DNA from: an uncultured Propioniciclava sp.
Lineage (GTDB): Bacteria > Actinomycetota > Actinomycetes > Propionibacteriales > Propionibacteriaceae
DNA length: 16,737 nt
Assembly: GCA_937872005.1 (NCBI GenBank)
Contig: CALMPQ010000449.1
Coordinates: 1 to 16,737 of the forward strand
Direction: 5' to 3'
The notes beneath the pieces are model-generated. The model had not been told where the DNA came from. It searched no databases and saw only the letters and a program-made list of their open reading frames with translations. The first letter of the stretch is position 1, and every line of letters begins with the position of its first letter. Of this stretch, positions 7,493-16,737 are shown in pieces. Both the position numbers and the translations under genes were made by a program.

Positions 7493-7906
7493 ATGGCCAC
7501 CGTTGAGCTGACTGCCGAGAACTTCGCCAGCACGATCGAGACCTCCGACACCCTGTTCATCGACTTCTGGGCCGCTTGGTGTGGCCCGTGCCGCATGTTC
7601 GCCCCCGTCTTCGAGGGCGCCGCGGAGAAGCACGCCGACGCGACCTTCGCCAAGCTCGACACCGAGGCCCAGCAGGAGATCGCGGCCGCGCTCGAGATCC
7701 AGTCGATCCCGACCCTGATGGCCTTCCGCGGCGGCGTCCTCGTCTACCGCGAGGCCGGCGCCATGAACGCCGCGGGCTTCGACCAGCTCGTCGAGGCCGT
7801 CAAGGCCCTCGACGTCGAGGAGGTCCGCCAGCAGGCCGCTGCCGCGCAGGCCGCCCACGAGGCCGGCGGCCACGCCGACCACGACCACGGCGACCATCAG
7901 CACTGA
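7493..7906 (+). CDS. trxA: Thioredoxin with His-rich C-terminal tail
   Basis: A 137-residue thioredoxin-fold protein with the redox motif WCGPC (Cys30 and Cys33), the cis-proline SIPTL (Pro73) and the usual FIDFWAAWC strand before the active site. It would reduce disulfides in cytoplasmic proteins; no signal peptide is present. Typical thioredoxins end near residue 108. Here about 25-30 further residues form an Ala/Gln-rich helix and then a tail with seven His in the last 16 residues (His122 to His137), a likely metal-binding extension. The ATG at 7493 has GAGAGG at 7479-7484, 8 bases upstream. A 64-base gap separates it from the methyltransferase, and a hairpin follows 11 bases after its stop. 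No convincing promoter was seen in the gap. Confidence 0.92.
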   Translation: MATVELTAENFASTIETSDTLFIDFWAAWCGPCRMFAPVFEGAAEKHADATFAKLDTEAQQEIAAALEIQSIPTLMAFRGGVLVYREAGAMNAAGFDQLVEAVKALDVEEVRQQAAAAQAAHEAGGHADHDHGDHQH

Positions 7907-7917
7907 GTCACCGGTCC

Positions 7918-7966
7918 GACGCCCCTCGCCCCCACCCGCTTCCTCGGGTGGCAGGCTGGGGGCGTC
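7918..7966 (+). terminator. Nested GC-rich hairpin after the thioredoxin gene
   Basis: The inner stem CCACCCG (7932-7938) pairs with CGGGTGG (7945-7951) around a 6-base loop. The outer arms GACGCCCC (7918-7925) and GGGGCGTC (7959-7966) also pair. There is no T-run after it, as is common for actinobacterial hairpin terminators. Position right after the stop codon favours a terminator or 3'-end stabilising stem. Confidence 0.55.
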
Positions 7967-8014
7967 CGGCGTTTCAGGCAATCGGGCGGGCGGGAATGAA
8001 CAGGCCGCCCAGTG

Positions 8015-8030
8015 AGTTGAAGACTCAACT
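8015..8030. promoter_or_regulatory. Candidate operator: 6-bp dyad before the flavin monooxygenase
   Basis: AGTTGA (8015-8020), AGAC, TCAACT (8025-8030) is a perfect inverted repeat in an unusually A/T-rich patch, 17 bases before the ATG at 8048. A short TTGA-N4-TCAA dyad at this place is what a small dimeric repressor (for example MarR-type) would bind. The regulator is not in the window, so the family is a guess. Confidence 0.45.
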
Positions 8031-8047
8031 ACTTCGAGAGGCACGTC

Positions 8048-9076
8048 ATGGATCTCCAGTTCGGGCTCGACACCTTCGGTGACGTCACCGTCGACGGCGC
8101 GGGCAAGCCGGTCACGCAGGCCCAGGTGATCCGCGACGTCGTGGCCCAGGGCGTCCTCGCCGACTCCCTCGGCGTCGACTACTTCGCCATCGGGGAGCAC
8201 CACCGCCCCGACTTCGCCGTCAGCGCGCCTGACACGGTGCTGGCTGGCCTCGCCACCGCGACCGGGAGGATCCGCCTCGGGTCGGCCGTCGTGGTGCTGT
8301 CGTCGGACGACCCGATCCGCGTGTACGAGCGCTTCGCCACCATCGACGCGCTCAGCGGCGGACGCGCCGAGCCCGTGCTGGGCCGCGGGTCCTTCATCGA
8401 GTCCTTCGGGTTGTACGGCTTCGACCTGGCCGACTACGAGAAGCTCTTCGAGGAGAAGCTCGAGGTCTTCTCGCTGCTGCGCGAGGAGGGCCCGGTCACC
8501 TGGTCGGGCACCTACCGGACGCCCCTTGCCGACGTCGACGTGTTCCCCAAGACCGAGGGCGGACGCATGCGCTCCTGGGTCGCGGTCGGCGGATCGCCGC
8601 AGTCGGTCGTCCGCGCCGCCCACCGCGGGTTCGGGCTGCAGCTCGCGATCATCGGCGGCCCCGCCCAGCGCTTCAAGCCGTTCGCCGACCTGTACCGCCG
8701 CGCGGTGGACGAGTTCGGCGTGACGACCGAGATGCCCGTCGCCGTGCACAGCCCCGGCCACGTCGCCGAGACGGACGAGCTGGCGGCCGAGCAGTTGTTC
8801 CCCCACTTCAAGGCCCAGCGTGACCGCATCGGCCGGGAGCGGGGCTGGGGGGCCATGGGGTCCGACGAGTTCACCCATGAGATCGAGCACGGCGCGCTGT
8901 ACGTCGGGTCGCCGGAGACGGTGGCGGCCAAGATCGCCGCGACCGTGCGCGAACTCAAGGTCGACCAGTTCGACCTGAAGTACGCCAACGGGCCCATGCC
9001 GCACAGCCAGCTGATGAAGTCCATCGAGCTGTACGCCACGCGCGTCGTCCCGCTGGTGCGGGAGATGCTGGCCTGA
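8048..9076 (+). CDS. LLM-class flavin-dependent oxidoreductase
   Basis: A 342-residue luciferase-like monooxygenase with a TIM-barrel fold. Family marks are FGLDTFGDV at the N-terminus, DYFAIGEHHRPDF (44-56), RIRLGSAVVVLSSDDPIRVYE (75-95), FATIDALSGGRAEPVLGRGS and GFDLADYEKLFEEKLEVF. GRGSFIESF with the EKL stretch recalls the FMN-dependent subgroup of small-molecule oxidoreductases, as opposed to the F420-dependent one, but the cofactor is not certain. It would oxidise or reduce an unknown small substrate using reduced flavin and oxygen. The ATG at 8048 has AGAGG 7 bases upstream. It sits alone between a hairpin and the convergent crtU, with a dyad operator candidate upstream, so it is probably an independently induced gene. 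Confidence 0.88.
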   Translation: MDLQFGLDTFGDVTVDGAGKPVTQAQVIRDVVAQGVLADSLGVDYFAIGEHHRPDFAVSAPDTVLAGLATATGRIRLGSAVVVLSSDDPIRVYERFATIDALSGGRAEPVLGRGSFIESFGLYGFDLADYEKLFEEKLEVFSLLREEGPVTWSGTYRTPLADVDVFPKTEGGRMRSWVAVGGSPQSVVRAAHRGFGLQLAIIGGPAQRFKPFADLYRRAVDEFGVTTEMPVAVHSPGHVAETDELAAEQLFPHFKAQRDRIGRERGWGAMGSDEFTHEIEHGALYVGSPETVAAKIAATVRELKVDQFDLKYANGPMPHSQLMKSIELYATRVVPLVREMLA

Positions 9077-9091
9077 CGCTCGGCGACGAGC

Positions 9092-9107
9092 CCACCGTGC
9101 ACCGTGG
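9092..9107. repeat. Near-palindrome between convergent genes
   Basis: CCACCGTGCACCGTGG (9092-9107) is a 16-base palindrome apart from one mismatched pair (bases 5 and 12). It lies in the 58-base gap between the convergent monooxygenase and crtU genes, and could be a two-way transcript-end signal or chance. Confidence 0.25.
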
Positions 9108-9134
9108 CAACGGAGCCCTCCGGGGGTCGGGACC

Positions 9135-10640
9135 TCAGCGGGCCAGGAGTCCGCGGGTCGGGACGGTCCACAGGCCCTCGCCCTGGACTCCCCATCGCTG
9201 GAGCAATGCGTTCGCTGCCAGGATCCCGGTCGTTGCGGCGCGCTCCATCAGCGCGACGGGATAATCGCTGCGTACCCAGTCCCCGGCCAGGACGAGCCAG
9301 GAGGCAGGTGTCTCCACCCCCGGACGGTCGTTCCACGGGGATGGGGTGATGAGGGTGCAGTCGTCCTGAACCAGCACCTCGCGGTGCAGCGTCCCCATGT
9401 GCGCCGTTTCGGGGAAGACCCGGTGCATCTCGCTGGTCAGGTGCTGGACGAGGCGGTCGGTCGAGCCCTCGTTCCCGAGAACGTCCGGGTCGCACGCGTA
9501 GGCGTGCAGTTCCACGACGGATCCTCCGTGTGCCCGGCTTCAGGCGGCGGCTCCTGCCTCGAAGCGTTCCAGCACCGAAACGTTGTCGAGCGCGCCGTAG
9601 CCGCTGGTGCCCAGGAAGGCGGGGCGCTGTGGGGCGACCAGCGCATCGAGCCACAGCCGCACCACGGCAAACGGGGGTGCGTTGACCGTCTCGGCGACCC
9701 GGCGCGTGAACGCGTCCATCGGCCCAGAGGGGTCGCCGATGCCGGCCACCAGGGAGCGGGCAGCGCGGGGGTCGGTGGCCAGGACGACGGCGTCCGCCGC
9801 GATGAGCTCGCCGTGGTCGGTCCGGGCTCCGGTCGGGCCGATGGTGCTCACGCGGACGCCGGTGCGTACCTCCACGCCGAGTCGGGCCAGGTAGTGGCCG
9901 AGGGGTTGCCACAGGGCGGTGTCGTAGTCGTCGTCGGGGACGTCGAACAGGAGTCCTTCGGCCGAGCCCATGAAGTAGGTGTGGAACATGGCGACCAGTT
10001 CGCCGGCGGCGAAGTCGTTCGGATCGGCGAAGAAGGAGCGTGCGAACACCTCGAGGGCGAGGTCGCGTGCGTCGGCGGGGAAGCGCAGTCGGTCCAGGAA
10101 CGCGGCGGCCGATTCGCCGTCGTAATGGCTGTAGGTGTCGGGGAAGCGGACGCGCAACAGCTCCAGGGCGGTGGGTACGTCGACCTTCGCCAGGGACGCG
10201 AGTGTGAATGAGGGGCTCCGGGCGACAAACCCCATGACGCTGAACGGTGGTGTCCTGGGGATGTTGTTGAAGGAGTCCCGCATTCCGTCGGGGCGCTGCA
10301 GTGGGTAGTCGCGTATCGGGATCAGCCGTGCCAGGTCGGGGTCGGGTCGGCGCAGCACCGCTCGCAGGTTGTAGTACTGGCGGAAGAAGGCGTGGAAGCC
10401 GCGGCTCATGGTGCGTCCGTCCTCGAGCGGCCACGCGGCGACGCGTCCGCCGAGTCGGGGTGATGCCTCCACCAGCGTCACTCGGACTCCGCGTTCGGCC
10501 AGGATCGTGGCGGCCGACAGGCCGGCGATGCCGCCTCCGACGACGACGACCTTCGCTTCGCCCCTCAAGCGCTCGGCACCGGAGGGACCGGGGTGGTGGA
10601 CGGCGCGCCGATCGCGGCCGGGGAGTGCGGGTCGCTTCAT
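9135..10640 (-). pseudogene. crtU: crtU isorenieratene synthase, interrupted by in-frame TGA
   Basis: The frame covers 502 codons from ATG 10640 (AGGAG 5 bases upstream, ATGA overlap with crtT) to TGA 9135-9137. It is a CrtI-type FAD enzyme that desaturates and methyl-shifts the rings of beta-carotene to give isorenieratene. It has the dinucleotide motif VVVVGGGIAGLSAATILAER (31-50), then SRGFHAFFRQYYNLRA, LEVFARSFFADPNDFAAGEL and LVAMFHTYFMGSAEGLLF. The C-terminal flavin motif VLAGDWVRSDYPVALMERAA is followed by LLQRWGV. Codon 367 (9542-9540) is TGA in the stretch LERFEAGAAA*SRAHGGSVV. From memory, homologs read through this region without a length change and have Trp there (TGG to TGA). Both halves are in the same frame and well conserved. 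The upstream half alone (366 residues) lacks the C-terminal flavin-binding part and should be inactive unless read through or complemented. Confidence 0.82.
9522..9527 (-). promoter_or_regulatory. Shine-Dalgarno-like site for restart within crtU
   Basis: On the minus strand GGAGGA (9527-9522) lies 6 bases before an in-frame GTG (9515-9513) and 25 bases after the premature TGA. It could allow reinitiation to make a 126-residue C-terminal fragment (MELHAYACDPDVLG...). The same bases encode the conserved Gly-Gly-Ser of the full-length enzyme, so the site may be coincidental. Confidence 0.35.
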
Positions 10641-11359
10641 GCGGTCTCCTGGGGCTTGCGGGCCATGTAGAGGTGGAGGATGTCGTGTTGCCAGCCGGGC
10701 ACACTCCGGGTGGCGATGTCCACGAAGCCGGCGGTGTGGAGCTGCTCCATGAAGTCCGTCGGTGTGTCGAACTCCATCACGCTGCGCCAGAGGTAGGTGT
10801 ACAGCGAGGGGTTGCGGTCGAGCAGGGCTCCGAGCGGGATGATGACCAGCCAGCTCACGATGCTCCACACCAGTTGCGCGCGGAATCGCTCGCGCACGGA
10901 GTACTCGACGACGGTCAGGGTGCCGCCGGGTGTGAGCAGCGCCTGGATCTCCGCCAGGGCGTCTCGGCGTTGAGCGGGTGTGAGGTTGCGGAAGAGATAG
11001 GCCGACAGGATGCCGTGGTGGGTTCCGGGCTGCCACGCTTGGGTGTCCAGCGAGCCGGCGGTGGCCTCGGCGAAGGTGACCGACGCAGGCCACTCTTTGG
11101 CGCGGGCGCGGCTGAGCATGCCGGGGGATGCGTCCAACCCTTGGATGTGGGTGTCGGGTGGGGCTGCGTCCACCAGTGCTCGGGTGGATGCTCCCGAACC
11201 GCAGGCGAGGTCGAGGAGGCGCCATGGTCCGGGCTGGCCGCGCAGCGTGTCCACCAGTGATGCGGCTGCGCTGCGCAGATGGGCGTGGTAGCCGGGGTTG
11301 AGGGCCACCATGAGGTCGTAGTGCCGCGCCCCGCGGTCGAACGCTGCTCGGGTGCTCAT
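10637..11359 (-). CDS. crtT: Carotenoid-cluster SAM methyltransferase (CrtT-like)
   Basis: A 240-residue class I methyltransferase. LLDLACGSGASTRALV (48-63) is motif I, IQGLDASPGML (72-82) the SAM ribose region, and LLTPGGTLTVVEYS (141-154) motif III. The N-terminal FDRGARHYDLMVALNPGYH is UbiE-like. A hydrophobic stretch (LVWSIVSWLVIIPLGALL, 163-180) could let it sit at the membrane where carotenoids are. It overlaps crtB (ATGA, 11359-11356) and crtU (ATGA, 10640-10637). By position it corresponds to crtT of the Streptomyces crt clusters, where crtT lies next to crtU; as far as I know its reaction there is not firmly established. Methylation of a carotenoid, quinone or hydroxyl end group is possible. 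Confidence 0.8.
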   Translation of the reverse strand: MSTRAAFDRGARHYDLMVALNPGYHAHLRSAAASLVDTLRGQPGPWRLLDLACGSGASTRALVDAAPPDTHIQGLDASPGMLSRARAKEWPASVTFAEATAGSLDTQAWQPGTHHGILSAYLFRNLTPAQRRDALAEIQALLTPGGTLTVVEYSVRERFRAQLVWSIVSWLVIIPLGALLDRNPSLYTYLWRSVMEFDTPTDFMEQLHTAGFVDIATRSVPGWQHDILHLYMARKPQETA

Positions 11360-12285
11360 GGTTGCTGGTGGCGGTCCACGCGGCCTCGCACGCTGGTCCA
11401 ACGCGAGGGGCGTAGCGCGCCGACTGCGGCTTGGCGACCGAACAGGGCCAGCTTCTCGTGGGCGGGTACCCGGATGCGTCCGTTGAAGACGTCGTAGTCG
11501 GCTGCTTCGATCCGGTCGAGGATCCGTTGGTACAGGGTCAGGGCGGTGCCAACGCAGCGGCGCGAGGCTTCGGGCAGATAGGGCAGGCCATCGGCTGCGT
11601 GGGCGTACAGCGTGCGGTTGCGGGTCACCTGCTCGGCCATGAACGTGCGCCACTGCGGCGTCACCTGGCGCAGGTGGGGGTCGGCGCCGTGCCTGGCGAG
11701 CTCGTCCTGGGGCAGGTAGACGCGGCCACGGCTCAGGTCCTCGTCGACGTCACGCAGGAAATTGGTGAGTTGAAAGGCCAATCCCAGAGAGCGTGCGTGG
11801 TCGCGGGCAGCGTCGCTGGTGGGTTCCAGGACGGGCAGCATCATCTCTCCGATGACGGCCGCCGAGCCCTCCATGTAGCCGTCGCGGAGCGCGGGCCACG
11901 TGGGCCAGGTGGAGTGGGTCAGGTCGAGCGCCATGGCGTCGAAGAACCGCTCGAAGCACTCGGGGTCGGTGCCGCGTCGCCGCAAGCTGTCGATCACCGA
12001 GGCCATCACCGGTTCGTCCGAGGTGCCGCGGGCCAATGCCGCGAAGAACCAGGCGCGGAACGCGTCGAGACGCTCGGTCGGGGTGCCGTGGGCCGGCACC
12101 GAGGGGTGGGGGGTCTTGTCCGGCTCGTCGACGATGTCGTCGGCCAGCCGGCACAGTGCGTAGACCGCGTGCACGTCCCGGCGCTGGGGTGGGGGGAGGA
12201 GCAGGGCGCCCCAGTAGTACGTGGTGCCGTGCTCGCGGGTGAGGCGTGCGGCGGTGCGGTACCCGTCCTCCAGCAGGGTGCTCAC
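11356..12285 (-). CDS. crtB: Phytoene synthase
   Basis: A 309-residue all-helical prenyl synthase that joins two geranylgeranyl diphosphates to make phytoene. It has both Asp-rich metal sites: DDIVD (49-53) and DVDED (179-183) within FQLTNFLRDVDEDLSRGRVY. The conserved block YAxCRxxDDxxD is present as YALCRLADDIVDE, followed later by YMEGSAAVIGEMM. Length and motifs are as expected for actinobacterial CrtB. The GTG start at 12285 overlaps the crtI stop codon (GTGA), with GGAG 8 bases upstream. It is the third gene of the crt operon and its product supplies CrtI. Squalene-type synthases share the fold, but the crt context and lack of a membrane tail make phytoene the likely product. Confidence 0.93.
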   Translation of the reverse strand: MSTLLEDGYRTAARLTREHGTTYYWGALLLPPPQRRDVHAVYALCRLADDIVDEPDKTPHPSVPAHGTPTERLDAFRAWFFAALARGTSDEPVMASVIDSLRRRGTDPECFERFFDAMALDLTHSTWPTWPALRDGYMEGSAAVIGEMMLPVLEPTSDAARDHARSLGLAFQLTNFLRDVDEDLSRGRVYLPQDELARHGADPHLRQVTPQWRTFMAEQVTRNRTLYAHAADGLPYLPEASRRCVGTALTLYQRILDRIEAADYDVFNGRIRVPAHEKLALFGRQAAVGALRPSRWTSVRGRVDRHQQP

Positions 12286-13748
12286 CAGGTCATCTCCGCA
12301 ACGCGTCGGGCGGCGAGCTTCCCGGAGATGAGCACCATGGGGATACCCACACCGGGGGTGGTGCTCGACCCGGCGAAGACCAGGCCCTTCACGCGCTTGT
12401 CGACGTTCTTGGCCCGGAAGGGGCCGGTCTGGCGGAACGTGTGGGCGAGCGCGAACGGGGTTCCCGCTGCCATGCCCTGCGCCAGCCAGTCCTGGGGAGT
12501 GACCAACTCCTCGGTCACCATGTCGGTGGGGTAGCCCCAGCGCTGCAGGTCGGTGAGCATGCGTTCACGCAGGCGGGGGCCTTCGCTGGGCCAGTCGAGC
12601 CGGCCCACCTCCAGGTTGGGGGTGGGTTCCAGGACGTAGAGGCTGGTGCAGCCCTCGGGTGCCGCGTCGCGGTCGTGCAGGGACGGGACGGCCACGAAGC
12701 GGGAGGGGTCGGCCATGGGACGTCCGCGCCGGAGCAGGTCGTCGAAGGCGTCGTGCCACTGCTGCCCGAAGTGGATGTTGTGGTGGGCGGCCTCCGGCGG
12801 TGGGGCGCCCTTGACGCCCAGGTGCCACACCACGCACGAGGGGGAGTAGCGCCCCCGCGCGGCGACGCGAGGTGTGGCGACCTCGGGGAGGAGCTCTTCG
12901 TAGGCGACCGGGAGGTCCAGCGTGCAGACCACGGCATCCGCGTTCAGGCGTTCTCCACCGGCCAGCCGCACGCCGGTGGCTCGCCCCTGCGCGCAGGTGA
13001 TGCGGTCCACGGTGGCCCCGTAGTGGAACTCGACCCCGGCGTCCATGGCGGCCTGCGCCATCGCATCGGGGACCGCGCGCATGCCTCCTTCGGGGAACCA
13101 GACGCCCTCGACCGAGTCCATGTAGGTGATGACGGCGTACAGCGCCAGCGCCTGGGCGGGCGCGAGGCCGGCGTACATCGCCTGGAAGCTGAAGATGCGG
13201 TGGAGGCGCGGGTCGGAGAAACGGCGCTCGATGGCGGGACCGAGGCGGTCGAAGCCGCCCAGCGCGACCAGACGGGCGGCCGCGACCGGGTTGCGCAACA
13301 GGTCGGTCGGGCGGTCGAAGTTCACGTCGATGAAGTGGGGCAGTTCCGCCAGGTACAGCTTGCGCAGCCAGACGACGAACTCCTCGTAGGCGGCGGCGTC
13401 GACCGACCCGCACTCGCGGGCGATCTCGGCGCGCATCGCCTCCACTCCGTGGCGCACGTGGAGGGTGGAGCCGTCGTCGAAGCACGCACGGTAGGCCGGG
13501 TCGAGCAGCTGCATCGTCAGGTAGTCGTCCGCGCGACGACCCACCGCCCGGAAGGCCTGGTCGAGCAGGTCCACCATGGTGAAAACAGTTGGGCCGGAGT
13601 CGAAGGTGAACCCGTCGCGCTCGATGCGGCCGCTCCGCCCCCCGGGCACAGCAGCACGCTCGAGCACCGTGACGTGGTGACCCTGCCCCCGCAGGTGCAG
13701 CGCAGCGGACAGGCCGGACAGGCCGGCTCCGATGACGAGTACGTTCAT
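12282..13748 (-). CDS. crtI: Phytoene desaturase CrtI
   Basis: A 488-residue FAD-dependent desaturase that introduces double bases into phytoene, giving neurosporene or lycopene. MNVLVIGAGLSGLSAALHLR carries the GxGxxG dinucleotide site, followed by TVLERAAVPGGRSG and FTFDSGPTVFTM, all typical of CrtI. YAVITYMDSVEGVWFPEGGM lies mid-protein, and the C-terminal GLVFAGSSTTPGVGIPMVLI is the flavin-binding signature. The ATG at 13748 was chosen because GGAGGG lies 4 bases upstream; an in-frame TTG (13760) four codons earlier contains that site and is unlikely. It overlaps the upstream idi-crtE by ATGA and the downstream crtB by GTGA. The number of desaturation steps cannot be read from sequence; a CrtU-type pathway would need lycopene. 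Confidence 0.93.
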   Translation of the reverse strand: MNVLVIGAGLSGLSAALHLRGQGHHVTVLERAAVPGGRSGRIERDGFTFDSGPTVFTMVDLLDQAFRAVGRRADDYLTMQLLDPAYRACFDDGSTLHVRHGVEAMRAEIARECGSVDAAAYEEFVVWLRKLYLAELPHFIDVNFDRPTDLLRNPVAAARLVALGGFDRLGPAIERRFSDPRLHRIFSFQAMYAGLAPAQALALYAVITYMDSVEGVWFPEGGMRAVPDAMAQAAMDAGVEFHYGATVDRITCAQGRATGVRLAGGERLNADAVVCTLDLPVAYEELLPEVATPRVAARGRYSPSCVVWHLGVKGAPPPEAAHHNIHFGQQWHDAFDDLLRRGRPMADPSRFVAVPSLHDRDAAPEGCTSLYVLEPTPNLEVGRLDWPSEGPRLRERMLTDLQRWGYPTDMVTEELVTPQDWLAQGMAAGTPFALAHTFRQTGPFRAKNVDKRVKGLVFAGSSTTPGVGIPMVLISGKLAARRVAEMTW

Positions 13749-15397
13749 GCGTCCCTCCAAGCGATGGCGCGGGCCGCGGATCGCAGCCCCTCGATGCCGG
13801 CTTCGGTGAGCTGGCCGTGGGCGAGGCAGGCGTCGGCGCGTGCCACGGCGTCCTCAATCATGGTTTCGATGTCGTCGCGGACGCCGGTGGCTACCAGGGC
13901 ATCACTCACCACGGTGACGTCGCCCGGGCGAAGATCCACGGTCCCGAGGCGGGTGAGCGCCTCGCGGGCGGGACCGTCCAGGCGCTCGAAGGCCAGTGCG
14001 AGGATCACCGTGGCCTTGCCCTCGGCCAGATCGTCGCCAGCCGGCTTCCCGGTGAGCGCCGGGTCGCCCCAGATCCCCAGCTGGTCGTCACGCAGGGCGA
14101 AGGCGCGGCCGATGTGCTCCCCCCATTGCTGCAGTGCGGCGCACGTGCCCTCCTCGGCGCCCGCAGCGAGCGCGCCCAACTGCAGGGGGCGCTCGATGGT
14201 GTACATGCCCGACTTGAGCCGGGCGATGTGCTCGGCGTGGGCAAGGTCACGTCGACCTGCCGCGGCGCCGGTGAGATCGGCGCGTTGCCCGACCATCAGC
14301 TCGACGCAGAGCTCGAACCACAGGCGGCGCAGGCGGATGGGGAGCGGCTGGACAAGGCTGTCGGCCAGCGTGTGCGCCAAGTCACCCAGGAGCATGGCGA
14401 GGTTGACCCCGAAGGCGTCGGGCTCACCGGCGGCGCCCGCCTGCCGGTGCCATTCGGCGGCCTCGACGTGTGCGGCTGGCATCCCGCGACGTGATCCCGA
14501 CTCATCCATGATGTCGTCGTGCACCATGGCGAACAGGTGCAGGGTCTCCAGGGCCGCGGCGATCCGGATCAGCCCCGGATAGTCGGGGCCGGCGATGTCA
14601 CCGCCGGCCGCCACGAAGGCCCAGTGGAGCATGGTGGCGCGCAGGCGCTTGCCGCGCCCCACGAGCAGGCGTTCGAGCCAGGCCGGCAGGTCGTCAGGGA
14701 GCACCTCGACGCCCTCGGCACGGTTGGTCCGCTCCCAGGTGCCGGCCAGGTCGCGCAAGGTGGTGGTCAGCAGCCCGTCCACGCGGTCGACGAAATCCGT
14801 GGGCGAAGGGGCCGGGGCGCACGAGGCGCCCTCGAGCGCGAGCGCGACGCGGGGCACCTGGAGGACGCTCCACGGGCTGTACACAGCGGGGGTGGCGGTG
14901 ATCGCGGCCACCAGGTCCTCCCACCTCACCCAAGCGTGCTCAGCGACCTCGTCCGGGTCGGGGGTGACGAGGGAGGAGGAGACGTGGCCGATGAAGACGG
15001 GGCAGAACTCGTTCTCCACGATTCCGCTGGCGTCCACTGCCCGATAACGGAAGTCGGGCACCGCCGGGAGCAGCTCGGTGACCTCCAGGCCCAGTTCCTC
15101 GCTCACGCGCCGCCGGGCCGCCGCCTCGATGTCCTCGCCCGGGAGCGGGTGCCCGCAGCAGCTGTTGGTCCACACGCCCGGCCAGGTGGCCTTGTGGAGG
15201 GCACGCCGCGTGATCAGCACCCGGCCCTCGGGATCGAACAGGTACGTGGAGAAGGCGAGGTGGAGCGGGGTCTGGCGCGTGTGGACACTGCGCCGGTCGG
15301 CGGCGCCGATGGGCTGGCCCTGCTCGTCGAGAAGCACGACTTCGTCGGCGACGGCCACGTCGGGTTCGCCCGGCGCAGAGTCTTGCCGGACGGGCAT
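13745..15397 (-). CDS. idi-crtE: Fused IPP isomerase-GGPP synthase (Idi-CrtE)
   Basis: A 550-residue two-domain enzyme. Residues 17-180 form a type I (Nudix) isopentenyl diphosphate isomerase with NSCCGHP (catalytic Cys near 80), the Nudix-like box GEDIEAAARRRVSEELGLEV (87-106) and IVENEFCPVF (126-135, catalytic Glu). After a linker (about 181-205), residues 205-550 form a trans-prenyl synthase with GRGKRLRA (247-254), MVHDDIMDES (first Asp-rich motif, 294-298) and LRDDQLGIWGDPALTGKPAG (second, 437-441, with Gly for the last Asp as, from memory, in other actinobacterial enzymes). It would convert IPP to DMAPP and build GGPP for CrtB. ATG 15397 was chosen because the 16 codons between it and an upstream ATG (15448) have only about half G/C third positions, unlike the gene. 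The SD is weak. It is the first gene of the operon. Confidence 0.92.
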   Translation of the reverse strand: MPVRQDSAPGEPDVAVADEVVLLDEQGQPIGAADRRSVHTRQTPLHLAFSTYLFDPEGRVLITRRALHKATWPGVWTNSCCGHPLPGEDIEAAARRRVSEELGLEVTELLPAVPDFRYRAVDASGIVENEFCPVFIGHVSSSLVTPDPDEVAEHAWVRWEDLVAAITATPAVYSPWSVLQVPRVALALEGASCAPAPSPTDFVDRVDGLLTTTLRDLAGTWERTNRAEGVEVLPDDLPAWLERLLVGRGKRLRATMLHWAFVAAGGDIAGPDYPGLIRIAAALETLHLFAMVHDDIMDESGSRRGMPAAHVEAAEWHRQAGAAGEPDAFGVNLAMLLGDLAHTLADSLVQPLPIRLRRLWFELCVELMVGQRADLTGAAAGRRDLAHAEHIARLKSGMYTIERPLQLGALAAGAEEGTCAALQQWGEHIGRAFALRDDQLGIWGDPALTGKPAGDDLAEGKATVILALAFERLDGPAREALTRLGTVDLRPGDVTVVSDALVATGVRDDIETMIEDAVARADACLAHGQLTEAGIEGLRSAARAIAWRDA

Positions 15398-15491
15398 CTG
15401 AAGTTCCAAGGTTCGTCCAATCGTGCGCGGTCGCTGTCCGGGTGACATCAAATCGTTGCCGAAAGCATCCTGTCTACTCCCCCTCGTCGCC

Positions 15492-15497
15492 ACTCTA
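15492..15497 (-). promoter_or_regulatory. Candidate -10 box of the crt operon
   Basis: Minus-strand TAGAGT (15497-15492) would start a transcript near 15485, leaving a leader of about 88 bases before the ATG at 15397. A second -10-like TAGACA lies at 15476-15471. TTGACT at 15507-15502 is too close to the first and too far from the second to be a normal -35 box. Confidence 0.4.
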
Positions 15498-15581
15498 GTT
15501 CAGTCAATGAAGGAAATAACCCCTCCAAAGAAGGATCGCCCGACGCCGCTCGGGTGCGGCTGGGACTGGGGTCAGATCACC

Positions 15582-15587
15582 TAGAGT
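15582..15587 (+). promoter_or_regulatory. Candidate -10 box of the P450 gene
   Basis: TAGAGT (15582-15587) would start a transcript near 15594, giving a leader of about 20 bases that holds GGAGG (15603-15607). The -35 region (TGGGAC at 15561-15566) is poor and badly spaced, so an activator or alternative sigma factor is plausible. Confidence 0.4.
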
Positions 15588-15613
15588 GGCGGGGACACCC
15601 ACGGAGGAGTGTG

Positions 15614-16737
15614 ATGGAGCCGGATCCTGGCCACCGCAAGGCGCACCGCCCCGGAGAGAGCGCCGGGCCCCGGATCGAGCGCCGGGGCCGCACCGTTCGC
15701 GTCCGATCGCTCGAGGCCGCCAGACAGGTGCTGCGGGCGCGTCAGCGCACGACCCAAGCTGGGTTCACCGCCGAGTCCATCCCGCAGGGCGTCCTGAAGC
15801 ACCATCCCATCCTGATGTCGGACGGTCCGCTCCACGACCAGCAGCGCACGAAGGTGGCCCGCTTCTTCGCCCCCTCCGTGGTGCGCGAGCGGTACACCGG
15901 CCTGATGGAGTCGTGCGCCGAGCGGATCGTCGCAGAGGCCGTGTCCTCACCTCGGTGCCGACTCGACGACCTCGCCCTGTTCTACTCCGTGGAGGTCACC
16001 GCCCAGGTCGTCGGGCTGACCGGATCCGACGTGCGCTCGATGGCGCGTCGCCTGGTGACGTTCTTCAACCAGCCACCCTTCGACCTCGACCAACCGGGCC
16101 TGGGACGTACCCGCCGTCAGTGGATGCAGGCGGCGGTCAACGGTCTCGTGCCGCTGGTCCGCTTCTACGTCGCCGACGTCCGGCCCGCCGTCCGGGCTCG
16201 CCGCCGGGAACCCGCCAACGACGTCATCAGCCACCTCATCGCGGAGGGCTACACCGACACCGACATCCTTGTCGAGTCCGTGACCTACGGGACCGCAGGC
16301 ATGGTCACCACGCGCGAGTTCATCTGCATGGCTGCTTGGCACCTCCTGACCGATGACTCCCTTCGGGGCCGGTTCCTCGAGGGCGAGCAGGAGGAAAGGC
16401 TTGCGATCCTGAACGAGGTCATCCGGCTGGAGCCCGTCGTCGGCCACCTGTACCGCCGTGTCCACGAGGGTTTCACCATCCGCGACCGGGACACCCAGGT
16501 GGCGCTGGAGCCCGGGGACCTCGTCGACGTCCACGTCCGCAGCACCAACACCGACCTCGACGCGGTCGGCGACCAGCCGTTGAACGTGTGTCCGGATCGA
16601 CAGAGGGCCCGCGGCGTCGACCCGGCCGGGATGACGTTCGGTGACGGGGCCCACAAGTGCCCTGGCCAACCGCTGGCGTTGCTGGAGGCCGATGCCCTGC
16701 TCGTGCGCCTCTTGGCGCGCGAGGTCCGGATCGTGCG
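15614..16737 (+). CDS. Cytochrome P450, 3' end cut by window edge
   Basis: The frame has 374 codons from ATG 15614 (GGAGG 6 bases upstream) and is open at the window end. It is a soluble bacterial P450 without membrane anchor. It shows the C-helix HDQQR (74-78, HxxxR), the K-helix EVIR (268-271, ExxR) and the heme-binding loop FGDGAHKCPG (342-351) with axial Cys349. The oxygen-activating I-helix reads TAGMVTTRE (227-235). The usual acidic residue before Thr is replaced by Val232, which is unusual. The N-terminus is short before the first strand (about 25 residues). It is divergent from the crt operon and shares an 11-bp promoter element with it, so ring hydroxylation of a carotenoid, as proposed for hydroxy-isorenieratenes in other actinobacteria, is a reasonable but unproven role. 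It would need ferredoxin partners, not seen here. Confidence 0.88.
   Translation, partial: MEPDPGHRKAHRPGESAGPRIERRGRTVRVRSLEAARQVLRARQRTTQAGFTAESIPQGVLKHHPILMSDGPLHDQQRTKVARFFAPSVVRERYTGLMESCAERIVAEAVSSPRCRLDDLALFYSVEVTAQVVGLTGSDVRSMARRLVTFFNQPPFDLDQPGLGRTRRQWMQAAVNGLVPLVRFYVADVRPAVRARRREPANDVISHLIAEGYTDTDILVESVTYGTAGMVTTREFICMAAWHLLTDDSLRGRFLEGEQEERLAILNEVIRLEPVVGHLYRRVHEGFTIRDRDTQVALEPGDLVDVHVRSTNTDLDAVGDQPLNVCPDRQRARGVDPAGMTFGDGAHKCPGQPLALLEADALLVRLLAREVRIV

Follow-up and report, generated by a model that had tools for sequence, protein, structure and literature searches.

The carotenoid genes and the crtU-like gene

The window, by which we mean the whole stretch of 16,737 nucleotides that was analyzed, is contig C449 of assembly G000 (2.49 Mb, 482 contigs, 72% complete), and its minus strand carries a group of carotenoid genes in which adjacent members overlap by 1 to 16 bases. 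The group comprises a gene encoding a fused isopentenyl-diphosphate isomerase and polyprenyl (GGPP-type) synthase (13745..15493), a crtI-like phytoene desaturase gene (12282..13760), a crtB-like squalene/phytoene synthase gene (11356..12285), a UbiE-like methyltransferase gene (10637..11356), and a crtU-like gene of the end-ring desaturase/methyltransferase type and the flavin amine-oxidase family (9138..10640). The first three have no internal stop. NCBI cut-offs were passed by the crtI-like match (TIGR02734, 500 bits, cut-off 238) and the isomerase match and were failed by the crtB-like match, which reached the cut-off of none of the models listed, and by the crtU match, for which no NCBIfam model reached its cut-off and the best was HpnE (158 bits, cut-off 283). 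A lycopene cyclase gene is located on a second contig, C202, and reaches the end of that contig. On the genome of Propioniciclava sinopodophylli KCTC 33808 (G009, locus L034), the ends of the C202 match and of the window match lie 115 bases apart (32,687 and 32,802), and C202 therefore probably adjoins the right end of the window. Two other features were recorded in this region. The isomerase and polyprenyl synthase were fused in 12 loci, the window included; the same test showed them unfused in a further 51 matching loci, of which 12 were looked at and some may be truncated. A stretch of about 110 bases that separates the thioredoxin gene from the luciferase-like gene and is terminator-like to the eye (window 7896-8009) occurs in the window and in genome G001 and is absent from G009.

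The crtU frame (10640-9138) holds 501 codons, or 502 with its natural TGA at 9137-9135, and its start codon shares bases with the TGA that ends the upstream methyltransferase open reading frame. The only internal stop is a TGA at codon 367 (9540..9542, minus strand; numbered from the ATG at 10640-10638), which is followed by an A and lies in LERFEAGAAA*SRAHGGSVV. A sequence-only reading of this DNA had reported exactly this, one TGA at codon 367 of a frame of 502 codons, and we found the same. The Amino_oxidase profile PF01593 matches the gene with the one TGA inside the match. The 366-residue N-terminal fragment (9543..10640, minus strand) covers profile positions 1-292 of 443, leaving the flavin amine-oxidase-type domain of the terminated product incomplete, and the uninterrupted relative P0002 covers positions 1-443. 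Downstream of the stop, a possible restart open reading frame for 126 residues (9135..9515, minus strand) begins with a GTG that has GGAGGA 6 bases upstream and covers positions 349-443.

The name crtU was given on the basis of the relatives, the names given to them by their sources, and a cluster anatomy that we take such genes to have. When read through the one codon, the gene is homologous over its whole length to proteins called isorenieratene synthase, and with the N-terminal part of CrtU as the query, five proteins with that name in their source (P0008, P0039, P0043, P0048, and P0078) were 69 to 74% identical. The closest solved structure by sequence is that of a plant phytoene desaturase (5mog). 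The gene is called crtU-like, and formation of the aromatic rings of a carotenoid would be the expected role of its product. It aligns over nearly its full length with the CrtU/isorenieratene synthases of actinobacteria such as Streptomyces griseus and Brevibacterium, and it keeps the same company as actinobacterial crtU genes (crtI, crtB, a prenyl synthase, and a methyltransferase, with the lycopene cyclase on the probably adjoining C202), but it differs from them by the stop at codon 367.

Codon 367 in related proteins

A CrtU match was present in 107 of the 113 loci compared, two of which were the window itself, and was absent from six (L001, L003, and L030-L033). The aligned relatives, which include both actinobacterial genera named above, were 48 to 98% identical to the window protein. 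At the column of codon 367, 104 of the 105 other loci had Trp and one (L075) had Arg, and the window stop therefore sits on a nearly invariant Trp. Three pairs of loci were the same protein reached twice; the 105 loci thus correspond to 102 distinct proteins, 101 with Trp and one with Arg. The sequence-only reading had placed the stop on a Trp, one base away from TGG, by means of a remembered alignment with Streptomyces CrtU, and this alignment holds at the column in question: in S. griseus (L083) the segment reads LERWEGEAARWSRR. Its statement that the coding sequence downstream of the stop and the conserved C terminus had been kept also agreed with the alignment. It had named relatives that all end at this codon as evidence to the contrary, and no stop was present in the aligned part of any of the 105 loci.

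When 57 genomes (that of the window included) were searched with CrtU, 54 had matches at an E value of at most 0.001, many of them short and to other flavoenzymes. The gene was uninterrupted in G009 and G001 (98% protein identity), the close relatives of the kind to which the sequence-only reading had looked, both with Trp at codon 367, and in G007 (84%). P0002, a metagenomic protein of 501 residues at the head of a 121-member cluster, is 98% identical to the window protein and has Trp at 367 together with Ala370, the residue found in the window, demonstrating that an uninterrupted allele with the window's neighboring residue exists. The window's stop recurred in no other sequence among the genomes and loci compared and the protein clusters listed, and no relative of 366 residues was present among the best 120 of 2210 protein cluster matches (from 7999 scored candidates). 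A second crtU copy was not detected in the 72%-complete G000 assembly, where the only other match fell on crtI. The shortest protein among the matches listed, the metagenome protein P0004 (391 residues), stems from a nearly identical gene and is frameshifted near residue 305, ahead of the codon 367 site; it is a second disrupted crtU reading that could be either an error or another loss.

Placement of the contig and exchange of the carotenoid block

The origin of the contig was considered by comparing G000 with G009, using matches of at least 700 bases and stretches of G009 that amount to about a quarter of that genome. The window was 98.2% identical to G009 and C202 was 97 to 98% identical, and the contigs C36, C85, C204, and C252 were 77 to 90% identical. 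Contig C468 of the same assembly was 70 to 87% identical to its long matches in 14 genomes, G009 not being one of these. As a gauge of the assembly-wide error rate, the comparison offered few homologous stretches between species that are too distant, with the window contig out of line. Either C449 and C202 were misbinned from a strain like P. sinopodophylli, or they were exchanged recently. A second copy of the left-hand genes of the window was not seen among the best 5 of 7 G000 matches, which would mildly favor exchange, in an assembly that lacks over a quarter of its genome.

The carotenoid genes belong to a block that G001 and G009 share over about 15 kb at 98% identity, with flanks that are mostly 78 to 85% identical apart from one 966-base stretch at 96%. 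As aligned here (window 7500-16737 and L226:5697-12036), the block is about 98% identical across G009, G001, and the window, and it appears from these identities to have been exchanged recently between species. The block starts at the 3' end of a tRNA-Arg(CCU) gene. An insert of 14.7 kb in G001 has an exact copy of this 46-base tRNA end (L226:5697-5742) on either side (on C1, near 2770112 and 2784838), and at the same tRNA site C202 carries genes different from those of the insert, including a beta-galactosidase and a melibiase gene. The site beside the carotenoid block looks like an integration hotspot.

Nonsense allele or consensus error

We infer that the base at the stop is real, and our preferred reading, held with somewhat better than even confidence, is that the gene is an ordinary and very recent single-base nonsense allele in the strain or subpopulation behind the contig. 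A one-base substitution would have turned the conserved Trp codon into TGA, and termination at codon 367 would yield a 366-residue protein without the C-terminal 135 residues. With them goes the end of the flavin-binding family domain, and the enzyme would be dead or nearly so. Beta-carotene would then be left unconverted to aromatic carotenoids, and the change would be too recent for any further decay to be visible. Nonsense-interrupted genes and pseudogenes occur in dispensable pathways. Like these, the window crtU has one substitution with the rest of the gene and its neighbors free of stops, and there is nothing distinctive about it. We counted in favor of a nonsense allele the single TGA with the rest in frame, the neighbors without stops, and the uninterrupted genes of the nearest relatives; the lack of a second sequence carrying the stop counted against it.

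The principal competing explanation, possible but clearly the less likely of the two, is that the consensus of this fragmented draft is in error, with one base wrong or a rare variant picked during assembly. The low completeness and the 482 contigs suggest that G000 is a metagenome bin, and the contig looks out of place in it, possibly through mixed strains. Exactly one base is affected with no other decay, and the stop is in no other record found; these points count in favor of an error. Against this stands the quality of the surrounding sequence. In a three-way alignment of the window, G009, and G001, there was no indel in 8,012-15,443, a stretch of 7.4 kb; the only gaps between 8,011 and 16,729 were at 8,011, 15,444, and 15,478, of which 15,444 and 15,478 fall inside the opening 17 codons of the fused gene. 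A frameshift or a pair of compensating indels near the crtU stop was ruled out by the same alignment. Over six genes, the changes unique to the window were 31 silent and 24 nonsilent (with the stop counted in), compared to 36 and 20 for G001 and 36 and 21 for G009. The ratio of amino-acid-changing to silent changes in the window (24/31) did not differ significantly from that of G001 and G009 pooled (41/72; Fisher P = 0.40), and with no indel present the contig is therefore not visibly loaded with errors. We found no literature on premature stops and sequencing error in bins.

Constraint on the gene was compared to that on its neighbors. Relative to G009, dN/dS was 0.24 for crtU (0.20 before the stop and 0.26 after it), 0.22 for crtB, 0.19 for crtI, 0.28 for the fused gene, 0.61 for the methyltransferase gene, and 0.05 for the luciferase-like gene. 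Relative to G001, the values were 0.31 for crtU (0.28 before the stop and 0.29 after it), 0.12 for crtB, 0.13 for crtI, 0.25 for the fused gene, 0.92 for the methyltransferase gene, and 0.06 for the luciferase-like gene. crtU is not an outlier in the comparison with G009 and is somewhat above crtB and crtI in that with G001, where the value of 0.31 could hint at slightly relaxed constraint, a point that we counted against a nonsense allele as recent as the one favored here. Only two window-specific changes lie 3' of the stop (T370A, shared by P0002, and one silent change), so that the test is weak, with almost no power, and the age of the stop is not measurable from it; the values appear consistent with constraint on crtU without clear decay.

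Decoding of the TGA

Of the three readings that the sequence-only analysis had offered, a very recent loss and a read error survive, as described above, and stop-codon readthrough in a programmed form is not supported. Bacterial recoding of UGA (as selenocysteine, through misreading as Trp, or in codes with TGA as Trp) shares with the window a UGA at a Trp position and an A as the next base. The window organism differs in having TGA as a normal stop: it terminates the crtB-like, crtI-like, methyltransferase, and fused open reading frames and crtU itself. An intact RF2 gene (486 bits) is present in G000, and among its 26 tRNAs, an incomplete set lacking Ala, Cys, His, and Asn, for example, the only tRNA-Trp found has the anticodon CCA and none has UCA, which rules out a general code with TGA as Trp. 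Suppressor strains of the Hirsh type have an altered tRNA-Trp body. A suppressor tRNA-Trp was likewise ruled out, the 74-base sequence being 100% identical in G000, G001, G007, and G009. With an ordinary tRNA-Trp, RF2, and a downstream structure no better than that of shuffled sequences, there is no positive evidence for programmed readthrough.

We consider it unlikely that the TGA, although real, is leaky, with the ordinary tRNA-Trp misreading it often enough to insert the ancestral residue and give some CrtU activity. Misreading of UGA by tRNA-Trp usually amounts to a few percent at most, and neither the ordinary tRNA-Trp nor the presence of RF2 speaks for more. The A that comes next makes low-level misreading possible: in E. 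coli, a UGA-A context is cited in PMC5289835 as liable to be misread by tRNA-Trp. The same A follows the Trp codon in the nearest relatives (L005, L006, L034, and L007), and this context was therefore not selected for. The dN/dS values of 0.26 to 0.29 after the stop resemble those of 0.20 to 0.28 before it, a point in favor of a leaky allele, in a comparison without power. The further idea that selection maintains the downstream frame while a leaky UGA-A allele tunes the ratio of beta-carotene to aromatic carotenoids within a population of Propioniciclava would be less likely again.

It is more improbable still that the GTG at 9515 restarts translation to give a 126-residue C-terminal piece that complements the 366-residue N-terminal piece in a split enzyme. 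The in-frame GTG with its upstream GGAGGA would permit this, but the same motif and GTG are present in the uninterrupted closest relatives (L005, L006, and L034); these three and the two window loci are among the 7 of 107 loci that have it, and the site is therefore part of the sequence and not an adaptation to the stop. In addition, the break falls within the flavin-oxidase family domain, and no interrupted or split relative was found among the 105 loci. Insertion of selenocysteine at the TGA is scarcely credible: a tRNA-Sec (76 bits, cut-off 47, which 5 of the 14 control genomes also exceed) and, near the contig end, a SelB-like gene that does not reach its cut-off (235.4 bits, cut-off 242.25) are encoded on C85, and a hairpin starts 7 bases past the stop in the centroid fold, but the codon 367 column is never Cys, the folding energy of the 50 bases counted from the stop is no better than that of shuffled sequence (z = 0.08; 105 of 200 shuffles are as stable or more so), the nearest Trp-bearing relatives have almost the same letters in the hairpin, and C85, which is 79 to 81% identical to G009, may come from another genome than the window contig. 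Selenoproteins have Cys in their homologues and a SECIS hairpin, and the 101 Trp and one Arg together with the z value led us to reject this candidate. Judged by the tRNA-Sec and SelB-like genes (G000:C85:193-2595), the G000 organism probably does make selenoproteins.

Consequences for carotenoid synthesis

Loss of the end of the flavin domain through the nonsense allele should abolish CrtU activity. The enzyme is described in PMC2889829 as a beta-ionone or beta-carotene desaturase and is linked there to isorenieratene in Brevibacterium. The sequence-only reading had forecast that a carrier of the stop would lack aromatic rings and accumulate an earlier carotenoid, which is sensible if the allele is real. 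With a lycopene cyclase gene on C202 and no second crtU found in the 72%-complete assembly, the pigment expected is beta-carotene and not lycopene, and beta-carotene should accumulate in the organism that carries the allele. Because the contig looks out of place in the assembly, the strain to which the forecast applies may not be the one that the assembly represents. Within the literature on Propioniciclava carotenoids, we found nothing evidently on this crtU interruption.

Taken together, the stop looks like an ordinary event or a sequence error and not a new reading of the genetic code. Its own importance is small, as it affects a single copy of a pigment gene that is probably dispensable; the same stop in independent, normally pigmented strains would be of interest, as a case of natural readthrough in an actinobacterium of high GC content. 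The carotenoid block has a bearing on the spread of such clusters, for it is about 98% identical across Propioniciclava genomes whose surrounding sequence is about 80% identical.
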